DNA from: an uncultured Bacteroidales bacterium
Lineage (GTDB): Bacteria > Bacteroidota > Bacteroidia > Bacteroidales > Paludibacteraceae
DNA: 41,979 nucleotides
Assembly (NCBI GenBank): GCA_902780235.1
Contig: CACZEL010000015.1
Location: 1 to 41,979, forward strand
Direction: 5' to 3'
Under the pieces are notes generated by a model. That model made no database searches and was not told the DNA's origin. It worked only from the letters and a program-made list of their open reading frames with translations. Made by a program: the position numbers and the translations under genes. Positions 2,263 to 33,200 of the stretch are shown here, in pieces. The first letter of the stretch is position 1. Each line of letters opens with the position of its first letter.

Positions 2263-5200
2263 TGTTTCGGATGATTACTACATGATTATCTTCAATTACC
2301 TTATACACGCGACTCGGTGCCTCAGGAACGAGAATGACGGGTTCCTCAAGCGATCCGTGATGCGAGTCAGGCACATAATTCATTGTGCATTGTGCATCGT
2401 ACATTGTTAATGGCTCCCCGTCCCCGGTCTCAAAGCGTAGTGTACCGGAATGATCGGATTGGATCGTGAGGAAGTATAATGGTGACGCTTCGCTTAATGA
2501 TGGAATGCTGTAAGGCTCCGCTACACCAACGAGCTCGTCGCCGATATAGACCATCACCTTGGTACTTGGTACTACTTCTCCTTGTACCTTCGCGATCATA
2601 GTCATGTTCGTTGCGGCAGCGGGGTTATGGAAATGATCCGTCGTCTTCAGTTCCGTCTCCTGCATCTTCTGAGGCGCATGATCCGTCGTTTGGTGATAGA
2701 ACGGAATCACTACGGTTCCCAGTCCCAGACGTCGGAAGAGGTATCCTTCGCCGGGTCGGAGAGCGGTCAGGTTTCCTTCCCATCTAAGATCCTCGGAGAA
2801 GACGGCAAAGCGGTCATGTGCCTTGATGAGGTCACCCGGTTGCGCTTTCTGGAAATAACTTGCGAGCGCTTCGGAGATCGGTGTGGTACGGTTGAAGAGG
2901 CAAGGCAGCATGCTCCATTGCCCGTCTCCACGCACCTTCACCCACATAGAGTCTTCCGGTAAGGAATCACCGGAGATACGCATCCTGTTGCCGGCTTGGC
3001 TGTACACCATGAAGATCTGCGAGTAATGCAGTTTATCCAGCGTACCCATAAACTCTGCGGACGTCTCACTATACGTGCTGAACTTACGGGTATTGGGGTT
3101 CTTGATGATGTCGCCTTCTTTCCACGGCTCATTAGCGCTCAGACAGTTCGCCAAATAGCCGCCGGAAGATGTGAGATCCATATTAGTGGATATCCAGTTC
3201 CATCCTGCCTCCAAATCGATCATCTGAACTTCGCTGCCATACGTGGTGAGGATGAGCGGGTCGCTATCACCACAGTTATAGACGAATCCGTGAGCAAAGA
3301 TCACATTGCGGTTGGTTGACAAGTCATAAACCCTACCTGTAGAGGCTCTCCACAAACGGAATTGAATCGGCTTACGGTTCATGGCATCATTGCCGTAAAC
3401 AGTCAGATAAACCTTGGACTTATGCGTATTCTCGTTGAAGGAGACATGATCCATTCCGACACACTCGTTCTGATAGAACGCATATACGATATCATTCGGA
3501 TCGGTGTCGAACTCTGTGTCGTTCAGTTTCACCTGCGCACAAACGGACATATTGAGCGGATATTTATGCTCATCTACAGCTTCGTAAGGCGGCAATGCTT
3601 CTATGGTTAGCTCAACCTTCATCGGTTCGGATAATCCGTTCTCGTCCGTCACGTAAACGATATCTTCGTAGATACCCGGAGCGATATCGGTATTCGCGGT
3701 GAAGATGAGGTATAGTTCCTCGGTGGGGTTGATCGAACCATATGCAGCGTTAACAGTGAGCCAATCGGGCAAGGACTCGATGGTATATTGATGGCGTTTA
3801 CCGGAGTGGTTAAGCACGCGAGTGATATACTCAACCCCGTCTGTCTCCTCGCCGTAGATCGCGTACATTTTGATGGTCTTTTCCTCCCATTTAAGGGCGT
3901 TCTTATCCACATAGGCCGTCCAAGTAACGGGAGAAACCATAGGGTTACCGTTGAGATCCTCCACATTGCGGACGGTGACATAGACGGTGCGTTTGTTGAT
4001 CTCACGGTCAAGCATATTCAGATTGATCATGAGTTCGTCATTGTTAAACGCCCAATCAAAATTGAGTTTGGTCAATTTGCCCATGTTATGAGTCGGCGCG
4101 GAGGTCGATTTGTCGGCATAGGTTTCGATTGGGGAAGCGGTAGTATTGAGAATGAGCGGTACCTGTTTGTTAACAATCGTGCCGTCAGTGGTCTTGAATA
4201 CGCGCTGGTCATTGACAGAGAAGATCTGCTCGTAAACACCATTGCTGTTCTCCTTCATCTCATTGAAAGGCAGAAAAGCCATCAGACCCATCTCGTTACC
4301 AACCGGAGAGATCATGGAAATGGACTCCAGGAGGGACTTCGGCAGCGCCTGCTCAAAGATCGCGAACTCGTCAATATTACCGGCAAAATTCTTACCTCCG
4401 AAATACATAGCGCCACTAATCGGACCCAATTTGCGGGCAGCGAAGGTCTGCTTCAGGATACCGTCTATATACACCGCCACATTATTATAGGTTCTATTGA
4501 CCGCCATGGCTACGTGATGCCATGCATCATCCGAATAGGATCCTGCCATCGGCCACGAAGTGCTGTCCGAGTAAAGGGTCAGGCCTCCGCTCGTCACCAT
4601 CATTTCAAAACCATGCTTGTTATCCGTCCTTCCGGCGGAGAAGAGCGTACCTGTGCCAGTGGTCTTAAACCAGAAGGTAAGGGTCTCATCCTGAATGTCG
4701 GAGCGGCTCATCAGGTTACCGTCAAGGGGTATCCGTTCATTCTCCGGAACACGGAGCGATATACCCGTCTGATGCTCCCAGGACGTTCCATGCGTGTACA
4801 GCGTCGCACCGGTAGCTTTGTCCATCAGGACATCACCCGTACCCTCATCCATAGGATAGTACGCAATCAGTTCGCGCTCGTAGCCGGTCAGCCGGTGCAT
4901 GTGGGTCTCTGCTACCTCATCCGCACTCAGCGCTTTGGACCAGAGGCGTACCTCCATCATGTTTCCATTCAGATTCCGACCGATAACAATAGGTGCATTA
5001 ATCGTCGATATCTTGAGGAAATCTATGAGAGGAGGCGTATTCGGATTGGTTATATCCTGCGTTCCGACAAAGAAACGCACAGCTCGGGTGGTATGGTCAT
5101 ATTCGGTCACAAAGCGCGTAAATGCAGTCGGGGGCTCAGGGAAAGGCAAGGAATGAGTAGCCTGTAACCCATTGATCAACAACATCAAGTGATTATTGCC

Positions 5201-8200
5201 ATATACCAGATGAATGCTTCCCTTCTCGGATCGCAATTCAAGAAGCATGGCAGTCTGACTCGGATCATTCAAACGAACCATCATGTCAATCGTAAACGAT
5301 TTATCCAGGAACGACCGCAACACTTTGGACTCGGCATACGAATCTATGGTACCGCCAAAATGGAGCGATGTACCGGCCGCAATACCCGATTCATTGGTAT
5401 ATCCTGCCAACTGGAAGTTATTGTCCTCGTCCAGATAATTACCGGCTATCGGTTCATTGAAGCGCAGCTTGAGGTTGTCGCCTACGCCCAGTATCGCGTT
5501 AGCGGGTTCGGGTTCACCGAAGACGCGTGGCGGGCGGGTGTCCTTGATACCCGTCAATACAGGCGAAGACTTGGTTACGAAACCCGATCCGTGACGGCAG
5601 AAGGATACTGCACGGAGATCGTACTGCTGCTCCATCGGATCCCGCTCACCGTAGAAGCGGAAATTCTCTATTCGTCCGCCCTCAATCATCGCTTTGGAGC
5701 CCGAAGCCTGTTGATAGAGACTATCTTCCGCATAATAGGAACAAAGGTTCACCCATGCGTCATTGGACTGGGTCGTTAGTTTGTATTGCAGTTCGATATG
5801 GTCAAAACCGTCGTAGTTCACATCAAAGCCGTCAATAGATACCGGCATGTAATAGCCGTTCTCGTCACGCGGAGAGAGTGTGTTCATGATCCATTTATCC
5901 GATGGAGAAGAGATATTCACGTCGCAACTAACCGGCATGTAATGGACGGAGAAGCACACTTTCTGACAGGTGATCGTAGGAGTACATTCCGATTGCAGGA
6001 TAAGACAAATGTCTTCATAATCATAATCATCTCCGGCACGTACCTCGATGGTCTTGATGATCGGAGTATTGCCTTGGAAGCGGAACTCGCGTCCATCGGA
6101 TAGAGGTACACCATCGATACTTATCTTGGCGCCCTTGATATTGGTGGCATCATCCATCTTGAGGGTCATGAACACAGCCGGACCGCTGGCAGCCCCCACG
6201 ACCTCATCGGTTTCGTTCCACATCGTGAGCTTGAACTTAGCGGCTTGATCATGCGGCACATTGCTGACCTCATGACGGTTAATAACCATTTGCGGGTTCT
6301 CTATCTTCTGAGTGGCAGCATTAAGCGGTGTACCCGGATTGTAGAAATAGGTCGAGTCCGCCGCCTCCCAAGGACACCTGGTAGCGCCACCTAAAGTGGA
6401 GTACATCAGTGAGCCAAAGAGGTATTTGTTCTTATTATCACTATTGAAGTCGTGTGCCTCATAACGCGTCTCTTTCGATTGCTCATTGAAATCATCCGTC
6501 AGCGATTTATACACATTGAACGTCAGATGCTCCAACGGATTGAGGGACAGTACGTAGCCAGTGGTCTTGCTCGAGCCAACGCTCTCACCATTCTCCGGCA
6601 GGAGGTTAAATCCGGTCTCTAAGATAAACTTGCAGTCCAGATCGAATTTCACACCACCCACCTCCGCTCGTACGTACTGCGAAGGAGAGGTACCTTTGTC
6701 GGCAGCATTCAGGTGTTTCATCAGTAATTGAAGTCCTTTAGACCCTTTGAACAAATCCTTCAGACGCGCTATTGCCAAAGGACCAAAGCCGTCTCCAAAA
6801 AAGCCACTCGAGCTCGTTACTCCTTCACCTGTCTGGTGATTCCACGGCCAAGCGAAATAAGCAGAACGGGTATCTACATACGAATACGACTCGGAGTATG
6901 TCTGCGTCAGACCGCCGCTGATAGAATGGGTGGTAAGCGGTGTTTTGGTCATAGCTAACACTTTCTCCGCCTCGTTGGTAGCAAGAACTCCGATCCAGTT
7001 ATCCACGGCTTTGTTGTCCAACTGTACTTGGTCGAAGATCATCCAGTTCAGCCCGTCCGGCGTGATGATCTCGTAGTTTCCTTCTTCACCGAATCCGAGG
7101 GAGTCCGGATGCACCTTACTCCAATAAACCGGCCGGTCTTTGGCTATAGCTTGGGTCACCGCTTCCTCTCGTGTGCCGGTCAACAGAAGACTGTTACGAT
7201 GGTAGAGCAGATCCGGAATGATTGTGCCGGTGATATACTGTTGTGTGTAAGCGAAGGAGGATTGGATAAATTTCTTGATCAGCACATCCTCGGTTCGCAT
7301 CAGATACCAGGGTTTGCCGTTGGCGTCCACACTCTGCTGAACGATGCGGTAACTCTTGTTGTTGATTTTCGCTTTTATCTGCTCGAAAGAGATCGAGTCC
7401 ACGATGCGGAAAGCGTCGGCTTTGGAGGTCATCACACCGTTGGTCACACCGATATAGACATCCGCATTGGTGCCAACCTGGTATGGACCGGAACCGGTCT
7501 GAATCCGTTCGGTGGTCTTAAACTCGTAGTCCGCTTGATTATATCCATACCATTGTACCGTAAGCGGGAAATTCCAATCGGTGGTTTTCTCAACTGTATT
7601 GAGTACGCCAGCTGTAGCACCTGCTGCCGGAGAGCCTGCGTAGGTACCTACGAAATACTGGCTGTTATTTCCCCATTTAACGAAGAGGTTGAGACCTATA
7701 CGGAAATTGGAAGGTTCTTTGTATTTGACGTGATAGGAAGTACCCTTCTCGAGGTAAGCATACGAGGCACTTCCGGGAGGGTCACGAAGTATATCGAGTA
7801 GCGTTATACCAGTCGAAGCTGTATCGCGCTGCATGAAATCCGTTGCTTTCTCCACGGCTCCTAAGACATACGCCTGGAGCGGATTGGAGGTAACATACTC
7901 TCCTTCGCTCTCCACCGAGAAATCCAATGAATGCAACGCATTCTCTCCGGTCTGGACAAAGGTCACCTGGTCGAAAATCACGTTCACCAGAGCGGAACCG
8001 TTGGCATCCAGCGGCGCGGATTGGATATCCGTTGTTTCACGCATGCCGTTGTAAATCTTAAGGTTTCCTCCCTTGAGGTAAACACGGTCGGGTACGCGCG
8101 TGCGATCATTATTATAATAGTAATCCTCATGTGCGGACACGCGGAACTGGTACTGCCCCGCCGTAAAGACCGGAGCACCAAAGAGGTAACTGTAACTTCC

Positions 8201-11984: not shown

Positions 11985-12026
11985 TTAATATTCGTTTTAG
12001 ATTAGTTAATATTCGTTTTAGATTAG
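11985..12026. repeat. Perfect 21-bp tandem duplication before the giant gene
   Basis: Copies at 11985-12005 and 12006-12026 are identical; the core is AATATTCGTTTTAGATTAG. They fill most of the gap between the stop of the 47-residue peptide gene (12023) and the giant start (11965). No promoter-like TAnnTTTG is seen in them on the minus strand, so they form part of the intercistronic leader. Confidence 0.85.
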
Positions 12027-14046: not shown

Positions 14047-15408
14047 TTAATTTTCATTCACATCCTCAAATTGACCAATGTGTAATTTTCGGCGGGAGGC
14101 GAAGAGGACGATGATAGCTGTGATGGCAGAAATGGTGTCGCTGATAGGGATGGACCACCATACGCCGTCGATCGGATTGGTAAAAATCGTGGGCAGCCAG
14201 AGGACGAGCGGGATCAGATAAAGCACTTGGCGGGTGAGGCTTAAGAAGATCGCCTTGCCCGCTTTTCCGACTGAGGTGAACAGGTTACCTGTTACCATCT
14301 GGAAACCGATGATGAGCATCGTCGAGCAGACGATACGCATCGGGCGTACCGTTTGCGCGATAAGCACCGCATCATGGGTGAACATACGCGTCATCAGTTC
14401 GGGGAAGCACTCACCGAGTACAAAGACCACACCCATCACGCCGGTCGCGTATGCACAGGTAAGATAGAAAGACTTGAGTACGCGATCAAAATGCTTGGCG
14501 CCGTAGTTATATCCGGCAATAGGCTGCATGCCTTGGTTCAGACCCATCACCATCATTGCAAAGACGAAAGTCAGACGATTGATGACGCCGTACGAAGCGA
14601 TCGCCATATCGCCGCCGAATGTCTTCAATTGATTATTGATGATGATGACCACAAAACAATGCGCGATATTATATAAGAACGGCGACATACCGATCGCTAA
14701 AGCGCGCAAAGTGATATGCCGGTTCAGACGCCAAATACCCCGATGAAATCGAACCAATTCGTTCTTATCCATGAACTTGGTCAACTGCCAAACGACTGCT
14801 ACCGCCTGACTAATGACCGTCGCCAACGCAGCTCCTCGTACGCCCATATCGAGCCCGAAGATGAAGATCGGATCAAGGATGATATTGATGATCACCGCCA
14901 CAATAGTAGCCGTCATTGAGAAACGCGGATGACCCGCCGAACGCAGCATCGCATTGAGACCAAAATAGATATGGGTCAGTATATTTCCATAGAGAATGAT
15001 CTCCATGTACTCATGCGCATAGCCTAAGGTAGCCTCACTGGCACCAAACGCCATCAGGATCGGATCGAGCCATATCAGTCCTACCGTCATCACGATCGCC
15101 GAGAGGATAATATTCATCACGATCACGTTCCCTAATACGCGGTTCGCGCGCTCGTAGTCTTTCTCGCCAAGATAGATCGCCAAGAGGGACGAAGCCCCTA
15201 CTCCCACCAAACTACCAAACGCTGCACATATATCCATGAACGGTTTGGCTACCGTCAACGCACCCAAGGCCAATGCACCGCACCCATGCCCGATATAGAT
15301 CGTATCGACGATGTTATACAGCGAAGTGGCTGTCATCGCGATGATGGCAGGAAGGGCGTATTTCCATAGGAGTTTATGTACAGGCGCTGTGCCTAAGTTA
15401 TTTACCAT
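14047..15408 (-). CDS. MATE family efflux transporter
   Basis: 453 residues with about twelve hydrophobic segments in two similar halves, the layout of multi-antimicrobial extrusion (MATE) exporters. The N-terminus MVNNLGTAPVHKLLWKYALPAI followed by YNIVDTIYIGHGCG is the familiar first-helix pattern of the Bacteroidetes/NorM-DinF-like group. These inner-membrane antiporters use sodium or proton gradients to expel cationic compounds; the substrate here cannot be read from sequence. The start codon at 15406-15408 lies 19 nt after the mrp stop and inside a 15-bp tandem repeat, so the gene is co-transcribed with mrp. Two hairpins downstream close the operon. Confidence 0.9.
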   Translation of the reverse strand: MVNNLGTAPVHKLLWKYALPAIIAMTATSLYNIVDTIYIGHGCGALALGALTVAKPFMDICAAFGSLVGVGASSLLAIYLGEKDYERANRVLGNVIVMNIILSAIVMTVGLIWLDPILMAFGASEATLGYAHEYMEIILYGNILTHIYFGLNAMLRSAGHPRFSMTATIVAVIINIILDPIFIFGLDMGVRGAALATVISQAVAVVWQLTKFMDKNELVRFHRGIWRLNRHITLRALAIGMSPFLYNIAHCFVVIIINNQLKTFGGDMAIASYGVINRLTFVFAMMVMGLNQGMQPIAGYNYGAKHFDRVLKSFYLTCAYATGVMGVVFVLGECFPELMTRMFTHDAVLIAQTVRPMRIVCSTMLIIGFQMVTGNLFTSVGKAGKAIFLSLTRQVLYLIPLVLWLPTIFTNPIDGVWWSIPISDTISAITAIIVLFASRRKLHIGQFEDVNEN

Positions 15409-15433
15409 TTGGTCATTTACGATTTGGTCATTT
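15404..15433. repeat. 15-bp tandem repeat containing the mrp stop and the MATE start
   Basis: ACCATTTGGTCATTT (15404-15418) and ACGATTTGGTCATTT (15419-15433) differ by one base. The first copy holds the MATE start codon and the second holds the mrp stop codon, so the repeat forms the intercistronic junction. A related sequence lies in the mrp leader (16481-16513). Confidence 0.8.
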
Positions 15434-16471
15434 ATTTAGACATTTAGCTATTTGGCTAAACGCCTCAGCAGCGGGATGACCGATTTGTAAAGCGATAGGG
15501 GTTCCTTCATCGCCTCCCTCACGGATGGACTGTACGAGCGGGATTTGACCTAATAGCGGGATATGGAGTTCTTGCGCCAACGCTTTACCGCCGTCTTTGC
15601 CGAAGATATAGTATTTGTTTTCCGGCAACTCAGCCGGCGTGAACCATGCCATGTTCTCGATGAGACCGAGGATAGGCACATTCACTTTCTCATTGCGGAA
15701 CATTTCCACCCCTTTGCGGGCATCAACGAGCGCTACGGGTTGAGGCGTCGTCACGACGATGACACCCGTCAGTTGCAACTCAGAGATCAAAGTCAAATGA
15801 ATATCGCTCGTACCAGGAGGCAGGTCAATGAGGAAATAGTCCAGCTCTCCCCAATGGGCATCTTCGATGAGTTGTTTGATGGCATTGGAAGCCATACCTC
15901 CACGCCAAATCACCGCTTGTTCGGGATCGACAAAGAACCCGATCGAAAGCATCTTGACGCCATACTGCTCAATCGGTTCGATGAGCGTACGGCCGTCTTC
16001 CTCGACCGAGAAAGGCCGGCAGTCCTCGGTATGAAACATTTTCGGCATCGACGGACCATGGATGTCAGCATCCAGCAGTCCCACTTTATAACCCGCCTGC
16101 GCCAATGCCACCGCAAGGTTCGCCGTCACGGTCGATTTGCCCACCCCACCTTTGCCGCTGTGAATGGCGATCACATGCTGCGCATGGATGGCTTTTGGCT
16201 TTTGGCTATTAGCTGTTAGCTGTGTCTTGACGAATTTCGGATGGATATTAGCTACCACATTCGGGTCGATATAGGTCTGAAGGGCTACTTCAGAGGCCTT
16301 CATAACCGATTTGAGGAACGGGTCATTATCTTTGGGGAAGATCAACGAGAAGGAGACTTCAAAACCGGAGATGCGGATGTCGTCTTCCAGCATCCCGCTC
16401 TCAATCAGGTCTTTCCCTGTTCCCGGATAGCGCACATGGCGCAAAGCATCAATTATCTGTTGCGGATACAT
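15428..16471 (-). CDS. mrp: Mrp/ApbC-type P-loop ATPase, iron-sulfur cluster carrier
   Basis: 347 residues. The N-terminal 90 or so form a DUF59/MIP18-like domain. The Mrp ATPase domain then begins with the deviant Walker A SGKGGVGKS near residue 107, followed by GLLDADIHGPSMP and LIDLPPGTSDIHL. The family binds and transfers Fe-S clusters in the cytoplasm. The C-terminal CxxC of many Mrp proteins is not present: the equivalent stretch reads ENMAWFTPAELPENKYYIFGKDGG, which I recall as normal for Bacteroidetes. The linker between the two domains (QLTANSQKPKA) is encoded by a heptamer-type repeat. It is the first gene of a two-gene operon with the MATE exporter, and its own promoter is at 16520-16550. 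Confidence 0.9.
   Translation of the reverse strand: MYPQQIIDALRHVRYPGTGKDLIESGMLEDDIRISGFEVSFSLIFPKDNDPFLKSVMKASEVALQTYIDPNVVANIHPKFVKTQLTANSQKPKAIHAQHVIAIHSGKGGVGKSTVTANLAVALAQAGYKVGLLDADIHGPSMPKMFHTEDCRPFSVEEDGRTLIEPIEQYGVKMLSIGFFVDPEQAVIWRGGMASNAIKQLIEDAHWGELDYFLIDLPPGTSDIHLTLISELQLTGVIVVTTPQPVALVDARKGVEMFRNEKVNVPILGLIENMAWFTPAELPENKYYIFGKDGGKALAQELHIPLLGQIPLVQSIREGGDEGTPIALQIGHPAAEAFSQIAKCLNK
16190..16225. repeat. Period-7 repeat inside mrp
   Basis: GGCTTTTGGCTTTTGGCT followed by ATTAGCTGTTAGCTG. It encodes the linker between the DUF59-like domain and the ATPase domain. The words GGCTATTAGCT and GTTAGCTG are shared with arrays at 26432 and 28033. Confidence 0.8.
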
Positions 16472-16480
16472 CGAATTAAT

Positions 16481-16513
16481 TTACGATTTAGTCATTTACC
16501 ATTTCATCATTTA
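16481..16513. repeat. Short repeat in the mrp leader
   Basis: TTACGATTTAGTCATTTACC followed by ATTTCATCATTTA. It is closely related to the 15-bp repeat at 15404-15433, and lies between the mrp promoter and its start codon. Confidence 0.65.
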
Positions 16514-16618: not shown

Positions 16619-18619
16619 ATGAACGTTAAACATTTTCTTCTTGGCTGCCTTATGTTAGCCTCATGTACCGCAAAAAGTCCGATGGAGCAATCGTTCCAAA
16701 TGGATAAGAAATCGTACGAATCCGCACCTCGCGGTGTACAACAAGCTGCTGCGTTATGGACGGCGCAGGACGGTTCTCAAGCCGATTTTGACCAATTGGT
16801 AGCGGACTATTACTGTCAGACGGACAGTGAGCGTCTGGCGTTGTATGAATCGCTGAGTCGTATCTTGGAGAACGTCTATCAGTCCGGCGACATGCTGACG
16901 GTAGAGTTACTGCGTCCGACGCAGTTGACGAACGCCTCCGAACCGGAGACACCGGATTGGATCATGTCCGGTTACAGTCCCTTGGCGCATTTCACGGACG
17001 ATATGTTCGCCAATAAATTGGCGTTCATCACGATCATCAATTTTCCGCATTACACGCTGGAAGAGAAGAACGAGTTGGGTAAGCACTGGACGCGTCTCGA
17101 ATGGGCATACGCGCGTATGGGCGATGTGTTCACTACCCGTATTCCCGCCGAAGTGAAGACGCGCATGGCGCAAGTGCTGGCCAACGCAGAGAACTATATC
17201 GCAGATTACAATATTTATATGGGTAACTTGCGCACGGACGATGATCGTCAGTTATGGGAGAACGACAAAGTGCTGCTGAGTCACTGGAACTTGCGCGATG
17301 AGTTGAAAGCTTTGTACGGCGTTGAGAACGGACAGGAGAAGCAGGAGATGATCTATCAGGTGATGCAACGCATTGTGGATCAGACCATTCCGGCAGAAGC
17401 GATCAATAATCCAAACTATGTTTGGAAGCCGTATAGTATAGTCGAAAGTCAAAAGTCAAAAGTCGAAAGCGAGCCTTATACAAGATATCAGAAGATTTTG
17501 GATATCGCACAGGCGTATATGGCGGAAGATGCCTATTGTCCGTCTGCCCCGACGGGTATTCAGCGTAATTTTGAAGAAGGGGTTGAGATTCCTGCGGCAG
17601 AGTTGGACTGTTTGTTTAGGGCTTTGGTGGGTTCGAATCAAGTGATGAAAGTGGCGACTATCATCCGCAAGCGTCTGGGACGGGATCTGCGTCCGTACGA
17701 TATTTGGTACGACGGCTTCAAAGCCCGTGCGTCTTTGAACGAAGACGAATTGAGTAAGCAGACCCGTACGCTCTATCCGGACGCGAATGCATTTGCTGCC
17801 GATATGGTACGTTTGCTGCAACAGATGGGTTTCTATAGCGAGGATGCCCGTCGTATCGCACATCATATCGCCGTTGAACCAGCTCGCGGTTCGGGTCACG
17901 CCTGGCCGTGTCTGGGTCGCAAAGAGGACGCACGTCTGCGTACCCGTATTCCTGCTTCCGGCATGGATTATAAGGGGTATAACATTGCCGTACATGAGTT
18001 CGGACATTGCGTAGAGCAGGTACTGGACATGTATTTCATCGATCATTACATGCTCTCCGGCGTACCGAATACGGCTTACACCGAAGCTTCTGCTTTCTTA
18101 TGGCAACATAGAGACTTGCAGTTATTGCCCGGCGCCAAGATGGGGAATGGCGTCAATAATCCCGATGAGGTGCTGGATCAGTTCTGGTCGATGTACGAGA
18201 TCATGGGTGTGAGTCTGGTGGATATGGCAATGTGGCGGTGGATATACGATCATCCGAAGGCGAGCGCCAAAGAACTGTGTGAAGCCACAATGCGCATTGC
18301 CAAAGATATCTGGAATCAATATTACGAACCTATTTTAGGCGAACATGACTGTATCTTGCTGGCGATCTATAGCCATATGGTGAATGCTCCGATGTATTTG
18401 CCGAACTACCCGCTCGGACATATCGTGCAGTATCAGTTGGAGGAGCATTTGGCGAAATGCGAGAATCAACAAGAGTTCGCACAAGAATACATGCGTATCT
18501 ATCGTTTAGGTCGTTTGACTCCGAAGCAGTGGATGATCGAAGCGGTAGGCGAAGCGCCGTCTATCGAACCTATACTCCGCGCAGTGGATACGCTTTGCGG
18601 AGCGCCTCAAAAGCAGTAG
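16619..18619 (+). CDS. Zinc metallopeptidase lipoprotein with an HEFGH motif
   Basis: 666 residues. The N-terminus MNVKHFLLGCLMLASC is a lipoprotein signal with the lipobox Cys at residue 17. The zinc motif HEFGH is at residues 459-463, and a likely third zinc ligand is Glu489 in TEAS, the arrangement of gluzincins (clan MA, M3-like). The C-terminal block (ILLAIYSHMVNAPMYLPNYPLGHIVQYQ) also resembles this group. A dipeptidyl peptidase III is unlikely because that family has HExxGH. I infer degradation of peptides at the cell envelope. An array of four heptamers (17441-17468) encodes the linker VESQKSKVES. The 3' end overlaps convergent pdxB by 50 bp, and the transcript terminator lies inside pdxB. 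Confidence 0.8.
   Translation: MNVKHFLLGCLMLASCTAKSPMEQSFQMDKKSYESAPRGVQQAAALWTAQDGSQADFDQLVADYYCQTDSERLALYESLSRILENVYQSGDMLTVELLRPTQLTNASEPETPDWIMSGYSPLAHFTDDMFANKLAFITIINFPHYTLEEKNELGKHWTRLEWAYARMGDVFTTRIPAEVKTRMAQVLANAENYIADYNIYMGNLRTDDDRQLWENDKVLLSHWNLRDELKALYGVENGQEKQEMIYQVMQRIVDQTIPAEAINNPNYVWKPYSIVESQKSKVESEPYTRYQKILDIAQAYMAEDAYCPSAPTGIQRNFEEGVEIPAAELDCLFRALVGSNQVMKVATIIRKRLGRDLRPYDIWYDGFKARASLNEDELSKQTRTLYPDANAFAADMVRLLQQMGFYSEDARRIAHHIAVEPARGSGHAWPCLGRKEDARLRTRIPASGMDYKGYNIAVHEFGHCVEQVLDMYFIDHYMLSGVPNTAYTEASAFLWQHRDLQLLPGAKMGNGVNNPDEVLDQFWSMYEIMGVSLVDMAMWRWIYDHPKASAKELCEATMRIAKDIWNQYYEPILGEHDCILLAIYSHMVNAPMYLPNYPLGHIVQYQLEEHLAKCENQQEFAQEYMRIYRLGRLTPKQWMIEAVGEAPSIEPILRAVDTLCGAPQKQ
17441..17468. 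repeat. Period-7 repeat inside the metallopeptidase gene
   Basis: GTCGAAA, GTCAAAA, GTCAAAA, GTCGAAA. It encodes a charged linker (VESQKSKVES) between N- and C-terminal parts. Confidence 0.85.
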
Positions 18620-19580
18620 GATCTGCTTTGAGTTGTTTGGTAATAGCAGCGAGCCATGGTTCGCTGTTATTTTTTCGGTATAACGGTATAACGGTATAAC
18701 GGTATAACGAAATATCAATTGGAGGCAAGCCGAATTGTTCAGCTATCGCGTCAAGACACATTTGCGAGGCATTGCGCTTGCCTTCCACCGAGTAGCCGGC
18801 GATATGCATGGACGCCAATTGGGCTTTAGACAGCACCTCAGGATTGATGTTCGGTTCATTCTCCCATGTATCGAGTATGAAGGGATGTCCGCTGCGCAAG
18901 AGAGCCTGCTCATCTACTACCCCACCTCGTGCGGCATTGATGATAAGAGCGTCGGGTTTGCACTTATTCAGAAAAGCCTCATTGCATAGATGGTGCGTAG
19001 ACTTATCAAGTGGCACATGGAAGGTGATGATATCGCAATCAGCGATTTCTCCGCCGCTAAATGGCTCGATTCCTTCGGATGCATCGAGCGAAACGCCTAT
19101 GCCTTTGGGCGGATCATTGAGCAGCACTTTCAGTCCGCGACGCTCAGCCATCTGCGCCACCAACGAACCCACGTGGCCGACACCGACAACGCCGATTGAA
19201 AGTTGAAAGTTGAAAGTTCTGCCGATCTGCTGACGCCGTATGGAAAGTTGAAAGTATTCTTCGATTGCTTCCTCGATATAATCGCAGACGGCTTGGGCGT
19301 TGCAGCCGGGACAGGACATCCAGCGGATGCCGTGGGAATCACAATAGGCTGTATCGATATGATCAAAACCGATGGTGGCGGTGCAAACCAATTGTACGCG
19401 TGAACCGGCTAATAAGGTCTCGTTGACTTTCGTACGGGTACGTACAACGAGTACATCGGCGTTGCGAACCGCATCAGCATCTATTTCCTCCGGTGTCAAC
19501 GGACAAATTTCCACTTGAGGCCACTCGTTTTGAATGGCTTCAAGCAGAAAAGGTATATGTTTATCGAAGATGATGGTCAT
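18570..19580 (-). CDS. pdxB: 4-phosphoerythronate dehydrogenase-like D-2-hydroxyacid dehydrogenase
   Basis: 336 residues. The NAD-binding loop is GVVGVGHVGS, and the catalytic region is seen in IINAARGGVVDEQALL, with DTWENEPNI further on. The early CTATIGFDHID and CPGCNAQAVCDYIEEA blocks are those of PdxB, which oxidises 4-phosphoerythronate in the DXP-independent supply of pyridoxal phosphate. The ATG at 19580 (MTIIFDKHIPF) is preferred to the one eight codons upstream. Two heptamer arrays (19196-19254) encode FQLSIRRQQIG...FNFQLS just before the NAD loop, and an octamer array (18676-18709) encodes LYRYTVIPLYR near the C-terminus. The last 16 codons are antisense to the metallopeptidase gene. 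It is likely co-transcribed with panC, whose stop is 73 nt upstream. Confidence 0.85.
   Translation of the reverse strand: MTIIFDKHIPFLLEAIQNEWPQVEICPLTPEEIDADAVRNADVLVVRTRTKVNETLLAGSRVQLVCTATIGFDHIDTAYCDSHGIRWMSCPGCNAQAVCDYIEEAIEEYFQLSIRRQQIGRTFNFQLSIGVVGVGHVGSLVAQMAERRGLKVLLNDPPKGIGVSLDASEGIEPFSGGEIADCDIITFHVPLDKSTHHLCNEAFLNKCKPDALIINAARGGVVDEQALLRSGHPFILDTWENEPNINPEVLSKAQLASMHIAGYSVEGKRNASQMCLDAIAEQFGLPPIDISLYRYTVIPLYRKNNSEPWLAAITKQLKADPTAFEALRKAYPLRGV
18642..18675 (+). terminator. Metallopeptidase terminator embedded in pdxB
   Basis: AATAGCAGCGAGC (18642-18654) pairs with GTTCGCTGTTATT (18659-18671), with two G-T pairs and a 4-nt loop, followed by a T run to 18675. On the other strand the same bases encode the NNSEPWLAAIT part of PdxB. 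Confidence 0.8.
18676..18709. repeat. Octamer array inside pdxB
   Basis: Four perfect copies of CGGTATAA plus CG, beginning right after the T run of the embedded terminator. In the pdxB frame it encodes LYRYTVIPLYR. Confidence 0.9.
19196..19254. repeat. Two heptamer arrays inside pdxB
   Basis: Three perfect TTGAAAG units (19196-19216) and two further units, TGGAAAG and TTGAAAG (19241-19254), separated by 24 unrelated bases. They encode two FQLSI blocks next to the NAD-binding loop. Confidence 0.85.
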
Positions 19581-22895: not shown

Positions 22896-22924
22896 TCGAA
22901 AGATAAAAGACCGTTTCACTGAAA

Positions 22925-22966
22925 GACAAAAGACAAAAGATAAAAGATAAAAGATAAAAGGTAAAA
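22925..22966. repeat. Heptamer array after the DUF4270 gene
   Basis: Six units: GACAAAA twice, GATAAAA three times, GGTAAAA once. It lies between the stop codon (22895) and the terminator hairpin. Confidence 0.9.
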
Positions 22967-22967
22967 G

Positions 22968-22995
22968 AAAAACGCGGTGTTAAACCGCGTTTTTT
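22968..22995. terminator. Bidirectional terminator shared by the DUF4270 gene and clpX
   Basis: AACGCGG (22971-22977) pairs with CCGCGTT (22985-22991) with A and T tracts outside. The clpX stop codon (22980-22982) lies in the loop, so the last codons of clpX form one arm. Confidence 0.8.
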
Positions 22996-24227: not shown

Positions 24228-27200
24228 TATTTTTTCTCAGCAGCTTTCTTCTCTGCGCGCTTAGCCTGTGCCAACTGAATGTCGTAAGCGATCGGCGAAG
24301 CGATGAACAGAGACGAATAAGTACCTACGATAATACCCATGAGGAGTGCGAACACGAAACCACGGATAGTCTCACCACCGAAGATAAAGATAGCGAGCAA
24401 TACAACGAACGTACTCATAGAGGTCGAGAACGTACGGCTGAGCGTGTTGTTCAACGCGTCGTTGATATTGATGCTCTTCTCACGCTTCGGATAGAGGCCG
24501 TTGTATTCACGTACACGGTCGAAGATGACCACGGTATCGTTGATCGAATAACCGATAACGGTCAGGATCGCCGCGATGAAGGCCTGGTCAATCTCCATGG
24601 AGAAAGGCATGATCTTCCACAGGATAGCGTACAGACCGAGGATGATCACGGTATCGTGTGCCAAAGCGGTCAATGCACCTACCGAGTAAGCGAAGTTGCG
24701 GAAACGCAGGAGGATATAGAGGAAGATCACCACAAGGGCAGCGAAAATAGCCCAAACGGCACTCGTCTTGATATCGTCTGCGATCGCCGGACCTACTTTC
24801 TGGCTCGACATGATACCTACCGATGCGTTCGAATCGGTCGAACGGAAGTCGTCGAAGGTGATGTCCTCGCCAAGGAACGGCTTGCATCCTTCGTACAACA
24901 GACCCTCGATCTGCTCGTCAGCCTCAGCGGTCTCTTCGTGGATACGATAGTTGGTAGAGATACGAACCTGGTTCGCGTCGTTACCATAGGTGATGACGTT
25001 GATACCGAAGGTCTCGCCCTCTTCGAGGGTTGCTTTGAAGACATCCTCCAAGCTCTCGCGTACATCCTGGGTATTGATGTTGTTGTCAAAACGAACAACA
25101 TAGTTACGTCCACCGGAGAAGTCGATACCGAGGTTCAGTTTACCGAACAAGTGCGGCTCCAGACCGAGGATAGCGAAGATTACGATAGCACCCGAGATGC
25201 AGTAAGCGTACTTACGTGCAGCCACGAAATCGAAGTGGATATTCTGCAGGAAGTTCTGCATCAGCTTGGTGGTGAAGCTCAGCTCCTTAGCGGTATCTTT
25301 CTTCGCGTAGTCCTCGAGCAACAGACGTGTGATGAACACAGCCGTCAGGAAGGACGAGATGATACCGATCATGTAGGTAACAGCGAAGCCCTTGATCGGG
25401 CCGGTACCGAAGATAGCCAAGATAGCACCGGTGAGGAACGAAGTCACGTTCGCATCGATGATGGCGGTGATGGCGCCCTTGAAACCGTCCTCAATAGCCT
25501 TACGCATACCCTTACCGCCACGAAGCTCCTCACGGATACGCTCGTAGATCAGCACGTTTGCATCGACTGCCATACCCATCGTCAAGACGATACCGGCGAT
25601 ACCCGGCAGGGTCAGTACGGCGCTGAACGAAGAGAGGATACCTACCAACAGGAAGACGTTGCAAACCAACGCAGCATCGGCGATCAGACCCGGGATCCAA
25701 CCATAATAGAAGATCATGTAGATCAGGATCAGGATGAAACCGAGGGCGAAGGACCAGAGACCGGATTGAATAGCCTCACGACCCAGAGACGGACCTACCA
25801 CACTCTCCTCGATGATACGAGCCGGAGCTGGCATCTTACCGGACTTCAGGGTGTTTGCCAAGTCTTTTGCCTCTTCTACGGTGAAGTTACCGGTGATCTG
25901 GCTGTTACCGCCTGCGATCTCATTCTGTACGGTCGGGAACGAATATACATATCCGTCGAGCACGATCGCTACCGATTTACCGATATTGTCTTTGGTGATA
26001 CGCTGCCAAGCCTTAGCGCCCTCAGCGTTCATCGACATCGATACATTAGCGTAAGCGCTGATCTGGCTGAAGTCCGCACGTGCGTCGGTGATCACGTCAC
26101 CCTCGAGGGATGCACGACCGTCACGCTGCGCCTTGAGGGCTACGAGCTGATAGTAAGCGTTGGCCTCGTCGATGGCTTTCACCGTCCAGTAGAAACGTGC
26201 GTCACGCGGCAGGATAGCCTTGGCGATCTGCGAGTTGAGCATAGCGTTCACTTTCGCGGTATCTACATAATGCACGGTACCGATAACCGGACCACGATAA
26301 GCCTGACCGGCTTGGTTAACCGACGGGTTGAGGATAGCGAACAGCGGGTTGCTCTTCTTGTACTCAGCGATCTGAGCAGCCTGGTCAGCCTCAGCAGCCG
26401 TACTGTCACCGAGCAACTCTGCGAGCTCGTCGTTGGCTGTTGGCTGTTGGCTGTTAGCTGTTGGCTCTTCTGCTTTCGGAGCTTCCTCTGCCTCCGGAGC
26501 GGTAGCAGCGAACTCACGGTTGATCTGAGCGAGCATCGGCAGCAACTCGGAAGCCTCGTAGGTCTCCCAGAACTCGAGGTTAGCAGAACCCTGGAGCAGT
26601 TTACGAACACGCTCCGGCTCTTTGATACCCGGGAGCTCGATCAGGATACGACCCGGTTGAGCGAGTTTCTGAATGTTCGGCTGAACAACGCCGAAACGGT
26701 CGATACGGGTACGGAGCACGTTGAACGAGTTCTGGATAGCACCGTCCACTTCTTCGCGGATCACTTTCTCTACCTCCGCATTGGTCGAGGTGAGGGTCAC
26801 TTTGTCTTTCAACTCGAAGGTCGAGAAGATAGAAGCCAACTGACCGTCCGGATCTACCTCATTGTACGACTCGATGAAGAGCGTCACGAAGTCCGCACCG
26901 CTGGATTTTTGTTTTTGCTTGGCAAGCGCCAAAGCTGCTTTGTAGTTCGGAGTCTCGTTGTGACCGCTCAGAGCATCCAAGATGTCCGGAACGGAAACCT
27001 CCATCGTCACGTTCATACCGCCCTTGAGGTCAAGACCCAAGTTGATCTCTTTCTCACGGCACTCTTTGAGCGTGTAACCAAACCACACTTTCTTTGCTGC
27101 AATCGAGTCCAGATAGAGGTACTCTTTTGCATCATCACCGGCTGCATATTCCTTCGCTTTCTTGTCATAATGACTCGTTACCAACGAGAACGACAGATAG

Positions 27201-27259: not shown

Positions 27260-27346
27260 AATTTTTTGTATTTATTATTTATTATATATGCATTGTTTTT
27301 CGCGTGTACGCAAGCGCATATTCGCGCACGACACACAAAAAGTGCG

Positions 27347-28032: not shown

Positions 28033-28091
28033 AGCTGTTGGCTATTGGCTATTAGCTATTGGCTCAAAAAGGCTAACGGCTAATAGCTAAT
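28033..28091. repeat. AGCTATT-family short repeats in the pckA 3' region
   Basis: Tandem words of the type GCTATTGGCT and ATTAGCTATT, then in opposite orientation GGCTAACGGC and TAATAGCTAA. ATTAGCTATT (28051-28060) and AATAGCTAAT (28082-28091) form a perfect 10-bp inverted repeat, so the array can fold into a hairpin just downstream of the pckA stop. Confidence 0.8.
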
Positions 28092-28094
28092 GTT

Positions 28095-29699
28095 TTACAG
28101 TTGCGGGCCTGCAGCAACGAGGGCCTTACCTGCTTCGTTCGACGTATATTTGTCGAAGTTCTTGATGAAGCGAGCAGCGAGGTCTTTTGCCTTTGCTTCC
28201 CACTCAGCAGCGTTGGCGTAGGTGTCACGCGGATCGAGGATAGCAGGATCTACGCCCGGCAGAGCGGTCGGTACTTCGAAGTTGAAGTACGGGATCTTCT
28301 TCGTTGGAGCGCTCAGGATGTCGCCACCGAGGATAGCATCGATGATACCACGGGTGTCGCGGATCGAGATACGCTTGCCGGTACCGTTCCAACCGGTGTT
28401 AACGAGGTATGCCTTTGCACCGGATTTCTCCATCTTCTTAACGAGTTCCTCTGCATATTTCGTCGGATGGAGCTCCAAGAATGCCTGACCGAAGCAAGCA
28501 GAGAAGGTCGGAGTCGGCTCGGTGATACCACGCTCGGTACCTGCCAACTTAGCCGTGAAACCAGAGAGGAAGTAGTACTTCGTCTGCTCCGGCGTCAGGA
28601 TCGATACAGGAGGCAGTACGCCGAATGCGTCAGCGCTCAGGAAGATTACGTTCTTTGCAGCAGGACCTGCACTGATCGGGCGAACGATCTTCTCGATATG
28701 GTTGATCGGATAACTTACGCGGGTGTTCTCGGTTACGCTCTTGTCAGCGAAATCGATCTTGCCGTTCTCGTCCACAGTAACGTTCTCCAGCAGGGCGTTA
28801 CGACGGATAGCAGCGTAGATGTCCGGCTCGGACTCTTTGTCCAGGTTGATAACCTTTGCATAGCAACCACCTTCGAAATTGAACACGCCCTGATCGTCCC
28901 ATCCGTGCTCGTCGTCACCGATAAGCAGACGTTTCGGGTCGGTGGACAGCGTAGTCTTACCGGTACCGGACAGACCGAAGAAGATAGCGGTGTTCTTGCC
29001 TTCCATGTCGGTGTTCGCCGAGCAGTGCATCGAAGCGATACCCTTCAACGGCAGGTAATAGTTCATCATCGAGAACATACCTTTCTTCATCTCACCGCCA
29101 TACCAGGTGTTCAGGATAACCTGCTCACGGCTCGTGGTGTTGAAGGCTACGCAAGTCTCGCTGTTCAGACCGAGCTCTTTGTAGTTCTCCACCTTTGCCA
29201 ACGAAGCGTTGTAGATCACGAAGTCCGGCTCGAAGTTAGCGAGTTCTTCCTCGCTCGGCTGGATGAACATGTTCTTTACGAAGTGAGCCTGCCAAGCTAC
29301 CTCAACGATGAAGCGAACGGCCATGCGGGTGTCTTTGTTCGCACCGCAGAAAGCGTCCACAACGTACAGGTCCTTGCCGCTCAGCTCCTTGATAGCGAGC
29401 TCTTTAACTTTTGCCCAAACGTCCTCCGACATCGGGTGGTTATCGTTCTTGTAACCCTCGGTGGTCCACCAAACGGTGTCCTTCGAGTTCTCGTCCATGA
29501 CGATGTATTTGTCTTTCGGCGAACGGCCGGTGTAGATACCGGTCATTACGTTTACGGCGTTCAGCTCGGTGTTCTGACCTTTTGCGTAGCCGGTCAACTC
29601 GGGTTTGGTCTCCTCCGCAAAGAGGTACTCGTACGACGGGTTGTGTGCGATAACGGTCGCACCCTTGATACCATACTTGGTAAGATCTAATTCTTTCAT
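28095..29699 (-). CDS. pckA: Phosphoenolpyruvate carboxykinase (ATP)
   Basis: 534 residues, standard length. It interconverts oxaloacetate and phosphoenolpyruvate with ATP/ADP in the cytoplasm; in anaerobic Bacteroidales it often runs toward oxaloacetate during fermentation to succinate. Signatures: P-loop [11 protein letters not shown] from about residue 242, the metal/nucleotide block [32 protein letters not shown] near the N-terminus, and [15 protein letters not shown]. The start [11 protein letters not shown] matches the family. The leader has four decamer repeats (29713-29752) and the promoter at 29773-29803. Confidence 0.97.
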
Positions 29700-29712
29700 A
29701 ATGATATATTTT

Positions 29713-29752
29713 GTTTGATATAGTTTGACGTTGTTTGATGTGGTTTGACATT
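29713..29752. repeat. Four decamer repeats in the pckA leader
   Basis: GTTTGATATA, GTTTGACGTT, GTTTGATGTG, GTTTGACATT: exact 10-bp period with a GTTTGA core. They lie between promoter and start codon, so in the transcript they read as TCAAAC every 10 nt. This is one helical turn if a protein binds the DNA. Confidence 0.85.
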
Positions 29753-29772
29753 GTTAATTTTCAAACCGGCTA

Positions 29773-29803: not shown

Positions 29804-29812
29804 GAGTAGCGC

Positions 29813-30277
29813 TTATTTTTTAAGAATTTTCTTAAAATTGGTACTTTTGCTTATCAAAACAATTTTCTTTTTGAGAAGATAGAGCATCGCGAGCACAAGC
29901 AGTACAAGCGGCGAACCGATCGGAGTTGCACCCACCTCACCAACCGCAAGTTCTTCGGATGGGTCCGTATCATTCCACGGATCATATTCTGAACGAGCCC
30001 TACGAGGCGAAGAAGTCTCGAAAGGATTGTACGTTTCGGCGGTCGTATAAGAGGTCTTTCCAACCACCGGCGTATAGGTAGAGGTTGATTGGAAACGATA
30101 GTCCGCCGGATAGAGATCATTGCTCATCACGGGTTTCGTTCGCCATGCGGACGGTTGCTGCGCAGACTGGTATGTCTGCACAAGCTGGTATGCCTGAACC
30201 GGAGACAGTGCGCCTCCGAGCATCAGTAACCAGATCGTTACTATTCCTATGTAAATACGATTGTTTCTACTCATCAT
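29813..30277 (-). CDS. Small exported protein with a C-terminal membrane anchor, partner of giant protein B
   Basis: 154 residues. There is an N-terminal signal (IYIGIVTIWLLMLGGALSPVQA), then a low-complexity Tyr/Thr/Ser-rich middle with no known domain. The C-terminus is a short VGATPIGSP motif, a membrane helix (LVLLVLAMLYLL) and a basic cluster (KKK). This tripartite end resembles PEP-CTERM/LPXTG-like sorting tails and is probably a membrane retention signal. The start ATG overlaps the giant-protein stop by one base (TGATG) with GAGG upstream, so translation is coupled. GTG at 30280 or ATG at 30274 are alternatives. No function known. Confidence 0.7.
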   Translation of the reverse strand: MMSRNNRIYIGIVTIWLLMLGGALSPVQAYQLVQTYQSAQQPSAWRTKPVMSNDLYPADYRFQSTSTYTPVVGKTSYTTAETYNPFETSSPRRARSEYDPWNDTDPSEELAVGEVGATPIGSPLVLLVLAMLYLLKKKIVLISKSTNFKKILKK

Positions 30278-33200
30278 CACCTCACTCTCTGTCCGAACAT
30301 CGTATATACATGTCCGCCACGCAGGATATATACCTGACCGTTGTATATGATTTTCTGTACTTCTTCAGCCTGTAGGGGTTGGGGTTCATGGGTGCCGATA
30401 CCGGTGGTAACACCCTCTCCGCCGGATTGCGCATCGGGGTTAAAGCCACGACGACGGATATAATAGCGCCGTTGATGGTTCGCCTCCGGTGTCTCGATCT
30501 TGATACAGATACCGTCGCAGATAGGACGCTCCGTACCCAAGAGCGCATCGTAGAGCACGAGACTGCCGTCGATATTATTCACGCCGGTGAACCACAGTTC
30601 GGTTGTCGGATCGTACGGCAAGGCACTCATGTAGAACGAGACCGGTACGTTCACGATCGAGTCACGCAGATCAATACTCAGACCATAGCCATCATTCATC
30701 GCGTAAATATTGAACGGCGTAGTCGGGGTATTGGTCATGTGGAAATTATCGATATTGACGGTAGTCAGCATCGCATCTTCTCCTTGGATGATCGCCTCGT
30801 GATAACCCTGACCTAAGATCAGGCGGGAGTTACATCTGGGCGAAACGGGATTGATTGCTGTCACGGTCATGATACCCGGAGTAATTGGTAATTGGTCATT
30901 GGTCATTGGTGAACGTTGCGGCGCTTGTGCCAGTTCCTGGTCACCACCGCCTCCACCGCAGGCATAGACCGCCGGCACTTTCTGCTCCACCTCGGTCAGC
31001 ACGCGATAGGCGTTGAGCACGAGTGTCTTCGAGTTGACAGCAGGTCCGTCACGCAGTTTGACTATCATCGCATGCATCGGCGGCAGGTAACGGTCTTTGT
31101 TCGTGATAATGTCTTCCGATCCTCCGGATTCTGCTACCGCTTGGGTCACCGATTGATAGCGACCGTTCGCATTGATATAATCGACCTCCTGCTTGAGGCA
31201 GTTATCGGCTACGAAGCCCCAGATGTCGATATAGCCCATAGAGGGGTTACCAAAGACGAACGAGGTGGTCGTTATATCGTCACCCTCTGCCGTAGTATCG
31301 TTCGTAATAGTGTATTCCTCGTAATCGGCATGGAAAGCCAGTTTGCCGGCTTCGGTACCATCTCTTGCTACATCGGTACGCAGCGCATTCAAGTTTTGCT
31401 CGTAGAGGTCATACATCTTATCACCAAACTTGTTGTAGTAATAATACTTGTCATCGTGTTTGGGCAGACGCACAACGGAGGTCTCGTTTGCCACGTTCGA
31501 ACGGGCATAAACCGACCAACCCATACCGGCCGGCATCGGCAGCGACAGACCGTTGGTCACTTTCGACCAGTCAGCAGTTGCATTCCGAATGGTATCTTCC
31601 GTATCTTCACCGTTACCCTTACGGAGGGTCGTGCGGCTGTAGAGTGAAAGCCAGAAGGAGGTATTACCGGTGGTATAATTACGTCCGGCAGCATCGAACT
31701 CACCTACCTCCCAAAGCGGTGTCTCGCCGTTGATATCGGCCTGAGCGCGGAAGAGGTCACCGCTGATCATACCCTCTACAGGTGATGCACGGAAAGCCCA
31801 TTTGTTATACGGCATGCTCATGTCGGCCACAGCGTCATTGTATTCCATACGTTGCTGCTGTCCCATCGCAGCTTCCGGCAGGAAGCGGATAGCGTTACAG
31901 GTGTTGTACTGGAAGTTCACTTTCTGAACCGAGTCCTTCCATTCGGTCGGCATCGGCGGTACAACCGGATAAGGCAACCCGTCTTCCATCTTCGGAATCA
32001 GGACAGATATACCTGCCATCGGGGCGAAGTGGGTCTCCGTTTCAATCGGATTGTTATACTCGTCGATAGCGATCCAGTTATCGGCGTTATTCCATCCGTT
32101 GCTTTGCTCCGATTGCGGCTCCCAACGCAGGTAACTCGGCACAACGGAGAGGATGAACGGCACCGTACCTACGGCACAACCACCCTTGATCGTATCATGG
32201 CCTAAGTAATCCTGCAGGTTGATATTGAAGGTATAGCTGTATCCCGGTCGCATATGGTAACTATCGGGGGTCGGAACCAAAAGGATACTATCGCCTTTTG
32301 CGTAATACGTTGCTATCTCAGCCGGGTAGGTTTTATCCGGAATAAGGCTCAGCGTATGAATACCTTCGCGGAACTCAGGATCGTTGGTCTCGCGGAGCGT
32401 GATTGTTTTGATACCTACGTTAGCTGCAATCGAATCGACACGCAGTTTGAACTCGTCATTTGCCACGGTCTCGGAAAGCAAGACCTCAATCGGCTTTCGC
32501 ATCTGCGTGGAGTCACGATGGAGGCCGCCGATGATAAGCGGCAAAGCGGCCTTGGTTGTATCCGGGCTAAGTTTGACAAATATCGGCGCCGGGCACACTT
32601 CTATATTGGCCTTGGAGAGCGCATCCGTACCTGTTCCTACAATCGGGAAGATGACGAATTTCGCCGTATCACCGGTGGTTACGGTCACGGTCTGCTTGCG
32701 TTGATAGAGCGTAAGGAAACCATTATTCACCAGCGAACTGATCATATCATACGCATCGAGCCCCGCTTGCTTAAACTCTTTTCCCTGAGCGTTACGCTTC
32801 AGCACGTTCTTATTGATAGACGAGAGGTTCGGGGCGAACTGGTTGACATTCGCGCCTTCCACACGCAGTACATCTCTGAGGACCTTTTTGATATCGCTGT
32901 AGTAGTAGCCATACCGTTCCTTACTGGAAGCCTCGGCTGTATCGCCGTAGAGCAACCAGTCGTTGATACACGAACCCTCCAAATCGATCGGCGCCACACT
33001 ATCGAGGTAGAGCGAACCTTTGACACGGAGGCTGACATTATAGGTCGAGTTGACACACATACCCATCACCTCGGTGTAAGGTTGCTCCATTCCGTTGAGT
33101 TCAAGGAGCATCCTGTTGCTCACTTTCAGACGACTCGTCAAACCGCATATACTGCTCAGCAGCATAGATGAATCCGGATACATATGCACCGTGAACTCAT

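Follow-up and report, generated by a model that had tools for sequence, protein, structure and literature searches.

How do tandem arrays of seven-nucleotide units come to lie both between genes and, in frame, within them? The question is raised by a 41,979-nucleotide (nt) stretch of contig CACZEL010000015.1, here called the window, which belongs to a rumen Paludibacteraceae metagenome-assembled genome (MAG) of 2.28 Mb in 58 contigs with 78.6% completeness (the source genome, G000). Bacterial heptamer repeats have long been noted and their origin has gone without a test. A genus of many species that carries such arrays in the coding sequence of basic enzymes makes slippage, copying of patches and transposition directly testable, and one way in which conserved proteins gain new loop sequence would thereby be shown. 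An earlier note, made from the letters of the window, described period-7 repeats as widespread in coding and non-coding DNA and proposed that each arises by locus-specific expansion and could serve as a slippage-prone length switch. The abundance is borne out here, in and outside open reading frames (ORFs), but the units belong to a few recurring heptad families at unlinked places and are not locus-specific.

Recurring heptad families with a common size

Arrays in the window were checked with Tandem Repeats Finder (TRF) and by direct reading, which recovered the period-7 arrays starting at 2381, 16189, 17440, 19196, 22922, 26432 and 30881, as well as those of period 8 (18676), 10 (29713, also 20), 15 (15400) and 21 (11985, two exact copies). 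A degenerate array noted at 12282 stands only in part, as GTACATT-like units are visible by eye but TRF did not report them. Period-7 rows beyond those noted before lie at 28034-28064, 27269-27289, 16205-16223 and 2558-2573 (2.3 copies), and TRF also gave a mixed array at 16479-16513. When runs of identity at each lag were counted, the window yielded 9 lag-7 runs of at least 10 bases and 7 of at least 12 bases, versus a mean of 0.00 for both in 50 dinucleotide shuffles, which is far beyond composition. Among lags 4-30, lag 14 came second (4 runs, a harmonic) and the remainder had at most 2. A 440,576-base sample of the source genome, comprising the window and 20 further stretches, gave 100 lag-7 runs versus 0.67 as the mean of three simulations, with 80 at lag 14, 47 at lag 21 and at most 13 at any other lag from 3 to 30. 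Period 7, with harmonics at 14 and 21, is the sole strong short-period signal of the window and of the sample.

The sample holds 94 period-7 arrays, or 21.3 per 100 kb. The corresponding density is 9.8 in eight congeners (572,856 bases; range 3.2 to 22.0) and 6.9 in 80 SecDF loci of relatives (1,491,954 bases); these relatives are MAGs or uncultured isolates, in many cases from ruminants, under titles such as Paludibacteraceae and Bacteroidales. It is 2.0 in 16 other Bacteroidales families (196,558 bases), about one tenth of the source genome in these small samples, and 2.5 in four genomes of another order (80,000 bases). Lag-11 runs are also common in the SecDF loci L037-L116 (83 of at least 10 bases), perhaps as one conserved site counted repeatedly.

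Chains of at least 20 nt in the sample fall into the families RTTRGCY (33), AGTCRAA (22), AATTAAR (13), GGTKAAA (11), TATTMAT (10), AATTWTT (9), TTGAAAR (7) and ATTGGTM (2), where the AATTAAR and AATTWTT counts overlap because they are partly the same arrays read on opposite strands. Within the source genome, 225 of 4312 array pairs (5.2%) have identical units, versus 0.6-0.8% when the units are shuffled one by one. A search with the region of the 17440 array brought up 40 matches elsewhere in that genome, and a three-unit AGTCRAA pattern has 45 overlapping matches. The earlier statement that the units differ between loci and are not copies of one sequence is thus right in that there are several units, and wrong in that the families recur. 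Across the genus the three-unit pattern occurs in 82 of 151 genomes and reaches 128 matches in one genome, and for its reversed control the figures are 12 genomes and at most 8 matches; across the phylum the figures are 21 of 395 genomes versus 9 of 395 for the control. In the SecDF loci, identical units are found in 8 of 103 same-species pairs at least 500 nt apart versus 65 of 5134 different-species pairs (Fisher p = 8e-5). A plasmid sequence search gave no match.

The arrays share ends and a size. AG closes 20 of 22 AGTC arrays and GG closes 9 of 11 GGTK arrays, while TATT opens 9 of 10 TATTMAT arrays. A length mode of 29-33 nt in the sample takes in 21 of the 52 arrays inside ORFs and 16 of the 42 outside them, and arrays of at least 39 nt make up 6 of the 42 outside and none of the 52 inside. 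The 52 are those in ORFs of at least 100 amino acids; as such ORFs account for 91% of the sampled bases, the density of arrays is higher outside them. A wider set of 113 AGTC arrays peaks at four units (67 arrays), with 7 of two, 27 of three, 6 of five, 3 of six, 2 of seven and 1 of thirteen; many of these loci were retrieved by an 18-23 nt pattern, so that short arrays are under-represented, and the scan takes AGTC as its starting point. The last unit is followed by A in 97% of the arrays and then by G in 95%, and beyond these two bases the flanks are near random. Some heptad positions are nearly fixed and others variable, in an analysis seeded by the pattern. Reading-frame selection was considered as the source of the 30-nt size, given that 7n+2 becomes a multiple of 3 at n = 4, and is insufficient alone, because the same mode holds outside ORFs and because 9 of the 10 TATTMAT arrays, a family whose TATTAAT units contain TAA, also measure 29-32 nt. 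Since arrays of at least 39 nt occur outside ORFs only, selection may cut off the upper tail of the distribution.

An inverted partner accompanies 7 of 106 arrays versus 0 of 106 controls. Locus L017 has two copies (11427-11505 and 12892-12970) of an inverted GGTGAAA/TTGAAAR pair, with the arrays about 20 nt apart and close to the starts of two adjacent ORFs.

Neighbouring units within arrays bear directly on the proposed expansion in place. Adjacent AGTC units agree at the R position in.365 of cases versus.568 by chance (sd.039) in 43 arrays of other genomes, and in.405 versus.528 (sd.072) in 16 arrays of the source genome, whereas units three apart agree in.76 and.80, respectively. Neighbours are therefore less alike than chance, which is evidence against stepwise slippage and length switches. 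RTTRGCY neighbours are near chance (.579 versus.546, sd.023), GGTK gives.716 versus.685 (sd.041), and TATTMAT.278 versus.472 (sd.123, 6 arrays). AGTC neighbours are thus unlikely to have been copied stepwise from one another, which may have happened in some other families. Together with the length mode common to arrays inside and outside ORFs, the AGTC and RTTRGCY values speak against locus-specific expansion.

In-frame arrays and their exchange between species

AGTCRAA is the commonest family within ORFs and lies in frame in the genes for the CCA-adding enzyme, gyrase B, UvrA and others. In the source genome sample, 23 of 25 AGTC arrays lie in ORFs of at least 70 amino acids, 20 in sense and 3 in antisense orientation (one ORF having just 89 amino acids), and in loci of other genus genomes 28 of 34 lie in ORFs of at least 100 amino acids, 25 sense and 3 antisense. 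In the window, the 30-nt AGTCRAA array at 17440..17469 (plus strand, like every array below unless marked; four units and AG) is in frame in a 666-amino acid ORF (16619-18619, plus), which has no Pfam match, and encodes VESQKSKVES. Thirty of the 35 listed array-bearing ORFs of at least 120 amino acids were scanned against Pfam and 28 contain a domain; they include UvrA, an AcrB-type transporter, the CCA-adding enzyme (PolyA_pol), gyrase B, UPF0004/radical SAM, GHMP kinase, RecR, DapB, CoaE, glycosyltransferase 28 and signal peptidase. The array falls between two domains in the radical SAM, GHMP kinase, RecR and glycosyltransferase 28 proteins, and within one domain in PolyA_pol, CoaE and DHH. 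Two window genes also carry arrays between Pfam domains. In a Mrp/ParA-family gene (15428-16471, minus) the RTTRGCY array at 16189..16223 corresponds to residues ∼83-94, between FeS_assembly_P (4-66) and ParA (98-343), and in SecDF (24227-27259, minus) the RTTRGCY array at 26432..26466 is in frame between SecD_1st and the P1 head.

The ORFs remain open across the arrays. Seven is coprime with three, so a stop-free heptad array encodes one cyclic heptapeptide whichever frame is read. Four of the 30 scanned ORFs (arrays at L017:7918, L018:15507, L025:12829 and L033:11966) have their array within the first 25 residues of the longest frame, where it may come ahead of the true start; alanyl-tRNA synthetase is the clear case and was dropped from the array-bearing proteins, as its array precedes the Met that is probably the true start. 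The array sites are probably protein loops, judging from alignments and domain borders. A structure prediction of the CCA-adding enzyme had a mean pLDDT of 44.8 and was unusable as a loop test. The names PdxB for the 2-hydroxyacid dehydrogenase, IspE, and GyrB rather than ParE are our presumptive assignments.

Different species carry different arrays at the same site. These comparisons rest on one genome per species, the closest relative with an aligned site being 86.5% identical. At residue 193 of the CCA-adding enzyme, 10 of 15 sequences have a short loop (LNKDR or like) and five a longer one, which is AGTCRAA in the source genome, GGTGAAA/GGTTAAA in L220 and L228, and other sequence in L218 and L219. 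At residue 342 of this enzyme 8 of 15 are short and 7 longer, and the gyrase B loop is short in 21 of 30 and longer in 9. The dehydrogenase loop, which in the window holds the TTGAAAG array at 19196..19218, holds other arrays in other species: its pattern was found in 28 of the 81 sources, to which the count is limited, and a tandem run of at least 8 is present in 19 of the 28 versus 5 of 140 control segments taken elsewhere in these genes. The periods are 7 in eight, 14 in two, 8 in three, 16 in five and 10 in one, and the eight heptad arrays have eight different units. A 16-nt repeat family (TCTTACAGCGAAGCGG-like) occupies this loop in L043, L048, L059 and L060, and the SecDF linker of L050, L068, L072 and L075 contains an element with the palindrome CCGGTTTAGAACCGG.

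Sister species often have different units at one site, as read from arrays with anchors in the sister locus. Species that are 93.7-95.7% alike can have CTTTCGA (L114) versus GATGGCT (L116) at one place, and TTACCAC (L075) versus TTCAGYT (L107, the latter read by eye). Other arrays are kept, with one change between L060 and L059, and with equal length and the units in other order in L094 and L096. By alignment reading, a segment of ∼50 bp with an AATTTTC array (L114 ∼15980-16040, L116 ∼8820-8880; species 93.7% alike) appears inverted.

Copying of patches and its rivals

We tentatively favour the spread of patches in trans combined with selection, as this best accounts for the recurrent families, their common size, the in-frame positions and the exchange between species. 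The arrays would form several families of short dispersed elements that measure about four heptads apiece (mostly 29-35 nt). Part of an existing array would be copied in trans to a new place in the genome, through template switching guided by microhomology or through short-patch illegitimate recombination, and the short patch so placed would sometimes add bases and sometimes replace an equal length, as the SecDF array suggests. We infer the donors (other arrays), the placing of a whole patch in one event and the enzymes involved. Selection would then act as a filter: between genes most families would survive, and within a gene a patch would persist only if it is free of stops, preserves the frame and falls in a tolerant loop or linker. 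Slippage may build the longer arrays. It is also conceivable, and we advance this with somewhat more reserve, that a hitherto undescribed class of dispersed heptad elements of about 30 nt colonizes loops of housekeeping proteins across the genus as a genomic parasite, with one heptad element giving way to another more quickly than the surrounding gene changes. Such a parasite would be indifferent to frame because its period is coprime with three and a stop-free element gives the same peptide in any frame.

A number of observations weigh against copying in trans. The donor-recipient pair and microhomology at the junctions are hypothetical parts of the proposal. The starts of the arrays are looser than their ends: AGTC opens only 14 of 22 AGTC arrays, and RTTRGCY starts are mixed. 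Net length changes against relatives vary, being +30 nt (residue 193) and +24 nt (residue 342) in the CCA-adding enzyme and +36 nt in gyrase B relative to the short forms, +42 nt in the dehydrogenase loop region relative to the close relative L113, and 0 in SecDF, where the array replaces an equal length of the EAPKAEE linker of L113; there is therefore no single clean 30-nt insertion each time. Likeness of four-unit AGTC haplotypes within seven genomes is weak (.233 versus.180 between genomes; permutation p =.04, 61 haplotypes), and the haplotype counts fit independent positions. The source genome shares identical units with the congeneric SecDF loci in 192 of 9682 pairs (2.0%; shuffled 0.2-0.3%) and with the genome G131, whose arrays exceed 100 nt, in 0 of 2068. 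AGTCRAA is present in other orders, 15 of the 21 phylum genomes belonging to one genus of another order. As units are common to congeners and AGTCRAA reaches other orders, inheritance or an intrinsic preference may explain the families. Outside the genus AGTC arrays reach 13 units and lie in ORFs in only 9 of 25 cases (26 less L168, a locus of the source genome), much as ordinary slippage would leave them, and on viral contigs (L247-L285) they also reach 13 units, with 8 of 32 in ORFs and 24 outside. TTGAAAR neighbours (.765 versus.655, sd.059) and AATTAAR neighbours (.708 versus.626, sd.057) lean to likeness. A local seed test gave 0.40 versus 0.41 (n = 16, low power), with all four SecDF arrays leaning to a seed (the SecDF pattern matched 40 of 81 sources); two of three arrays at residue 193 of the CCA-adding enzyme lean the same way, and the array at residue 342 was left out as its A/G alternation is below the run threshold.

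The first rival is ordinary local slippage, in which 7-nt units are duplicated in place at replication, tolerant sites fill, and the step of seven comes from the polymerase, a proposal of Mrazek et al. 2007 as cited in the available portions of PMC4679880 and PMC4692102. Slippage is a serious rival, if on the whole a rather unlikely account. Heptamers head the long-repeat classes of many genomes in those portions (PMC4679880, PMC4692102), and long arrays do occur in G131 and outside the genus. The site of the 22922 array has another heptad, of GGTGAAA type, in L113, and the SecDF units are somewhat foreshadowed in array-free relatives (4 of 4). The likeness of TTGAAAR and AATTAAR neighbours and the intergenic arrays of at least 39 nt keep slippage possible, but slippage leaves unexplained why a few families recur with typical ends and size, why lengths show a peak and not a decay, and why AGTC neighbours are less alike than chance; nor is there a seed signal across all 16 arrays, at weak power. 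The suggestion that the arrays are length switches is further disfavoured by their in-frame places in housekeeping genes.

That a dedicated transposase or reverse transcriptase moves each family, as is thought for Rickettsia palindromic elements (RPEs) and miniature inverted-repeat transposable elements (MITEs), would fit the sharp 3' ends, the typical size and the in-frame gene sites, as in RPEs (PMC10969869, available portion), and one RVT_1 gene is present in the source genome. We nevertheless regard it as improbable. RVT_1 occurs in just 31 of 151 genus genomes and not in G129, which has the most AGTC matches and is 100% complete, so a reverse transcriptase adding heptads in telomerase-like fashion is not required; Y1 transposase has 0 matches in the 78.6% complete source genome, where other transposases were not searched for; and neither a target consensus past two bases nor frequent inverted partners are seen. 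RAYT/IS200 movers were also considered and none is in the source genome, and loss of RecJ was rejected as a cause, as RecJ was found in 145 of 151 genus genomes (139 above the cut-off). A selected function, as binding sites, intergenic RNA hairpins or useful flexible linkers, is more doubtful again. The nearly fixed heptad positions, the inverted partners that controls lack and the sense orientation of 25 of 28 ORF cases would agree with it, but places and units change between sister species, the short loop is common in relatives (10/15, 8/15 and 21/30), and the sense bias is explicable as filtering of the peptide. Assembly artefact deserves a mention only as all 80 SecDF loci are titled MAGs or uncultured isolates; it is scarcely credible, for orthologous arrays are kept across records of different projects (L059/L060 and L094/L096) and the ORFs stay open.

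Known repeat systems and other arrays of the window

Cyanobacteria contain heptanucleotide short tandemly repeated repetitive (STRR) sequences, and the arrays here are of the same general kind as such heptanucleotide simple sequence repeats (SSRs), being tandem heptamers far over chance and dispersed genome-wide. The earlier note knew of no described equivalent, yet heptamers are treated in Xanthomonas (GGGAATC), Nostoc, Beggiatoaceae (TAACTGA, also in some Bacteroidetes) and five Bacteroidetes, among them Paludibacter propionicigenes with two sets, in the available portions of PMC4692102 and PMC4679880. As described there, those repeats likewise have period 7, are dispersed, in part degenerate at fixed positions, sometimes inverted and different between close species; unlike them, the present arrays form several families with a mode of about 30 nt and lie in ORFs in 52 of 94 cases, many of them housekeeping genes, even if more densely outside ORFs, whereas those portions stress intergenic places. 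RPEs are small repeats found in frame in unrelated genes (PMC10969869, in part), and the arrays resemble them in their places within protein-coding genes but consist of about 30 nt of direct heptads with few inverted partners, where RPEs are palindromic and ∼150 bp. Bacillus repeats of constant size are the subject of PMC8161180. MITEs and repetitive extragenic palindromic (REP) sequences moved by a Y1 transposase are a less likely parallel: the source genome gave no Y1 match, and the flanks of the AGTC arrays are near random beyond two bases. The products of short-patch double illegitimate recombination are known as rare single events, similar in that a short foreign patch is placed without long homology and dissimilar in that many patches of heptad form are found here; a literature search on this process returned nothing on topic among the matches listed. 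Phase-variable contingency repeats are also short tandem repeats in or near genes, but the present arrays keep housekeeping frames open and, with one genome per species, gave no sign of length switching. No in-frame heptads in Bacteroidales genes were seen among the matches listed by a literature search of partial coverage. Heptamer repeats are thus known elsewhere, and the size, the in-frame loop sites and the exchange look new here.

The remaining arrays of the window lie in and around other genes. A CATTGTG array (2381..2407) falls within a 3245-amino acid ORF (2228-11965, minus), and an ATTGGTM array (30881..30910) is close to the C-terminal end of a 3422-amino acid ORF (30277-40545, minus), for which a weak Listeria-Bacteroides repeat match is the only one; these are the two giant ORFs of the window. 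The 21-mer in two exact copies (11985..12026) separates the first of them from the ORF at 12203-13663. An ATTTACC/ATTTGGTC-type array with periods 15 and 8 (15400..15458, by TRF and reading) runs from the 5' end of a MatE ORF (14047-15408, minus) across a gap of 19 nt into the 3' end of the Mrp/ParA-family ORF, and the mixed ATTTACC-type array with periods 15, 7 and 8 (16479..16513) lies upstream of that gene. A CGGTATAA array of period 8 (18676..18709) is in the 2-hydroxyacid dehydrogenase ORF (18570-19604, minus), and the AAAGAYA array (22922..22972) is between a DUF4270 gene and a ClpX-type gene. A period-10/20 array (29711..29755) lies upstream of the phosphoenolpyruvate (PEP) carboxykinase gene (28095-29699, minus). 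The TATTTAT array upstream of SecDF (27269..27289) is almost unchanged in L113, and the RTTRGCY array between convergent ORFs (28034..28064) is absent there; the latter has an inverted partner on the minus strand (28071..28092) with a complementarity of 0.65 in the scan.

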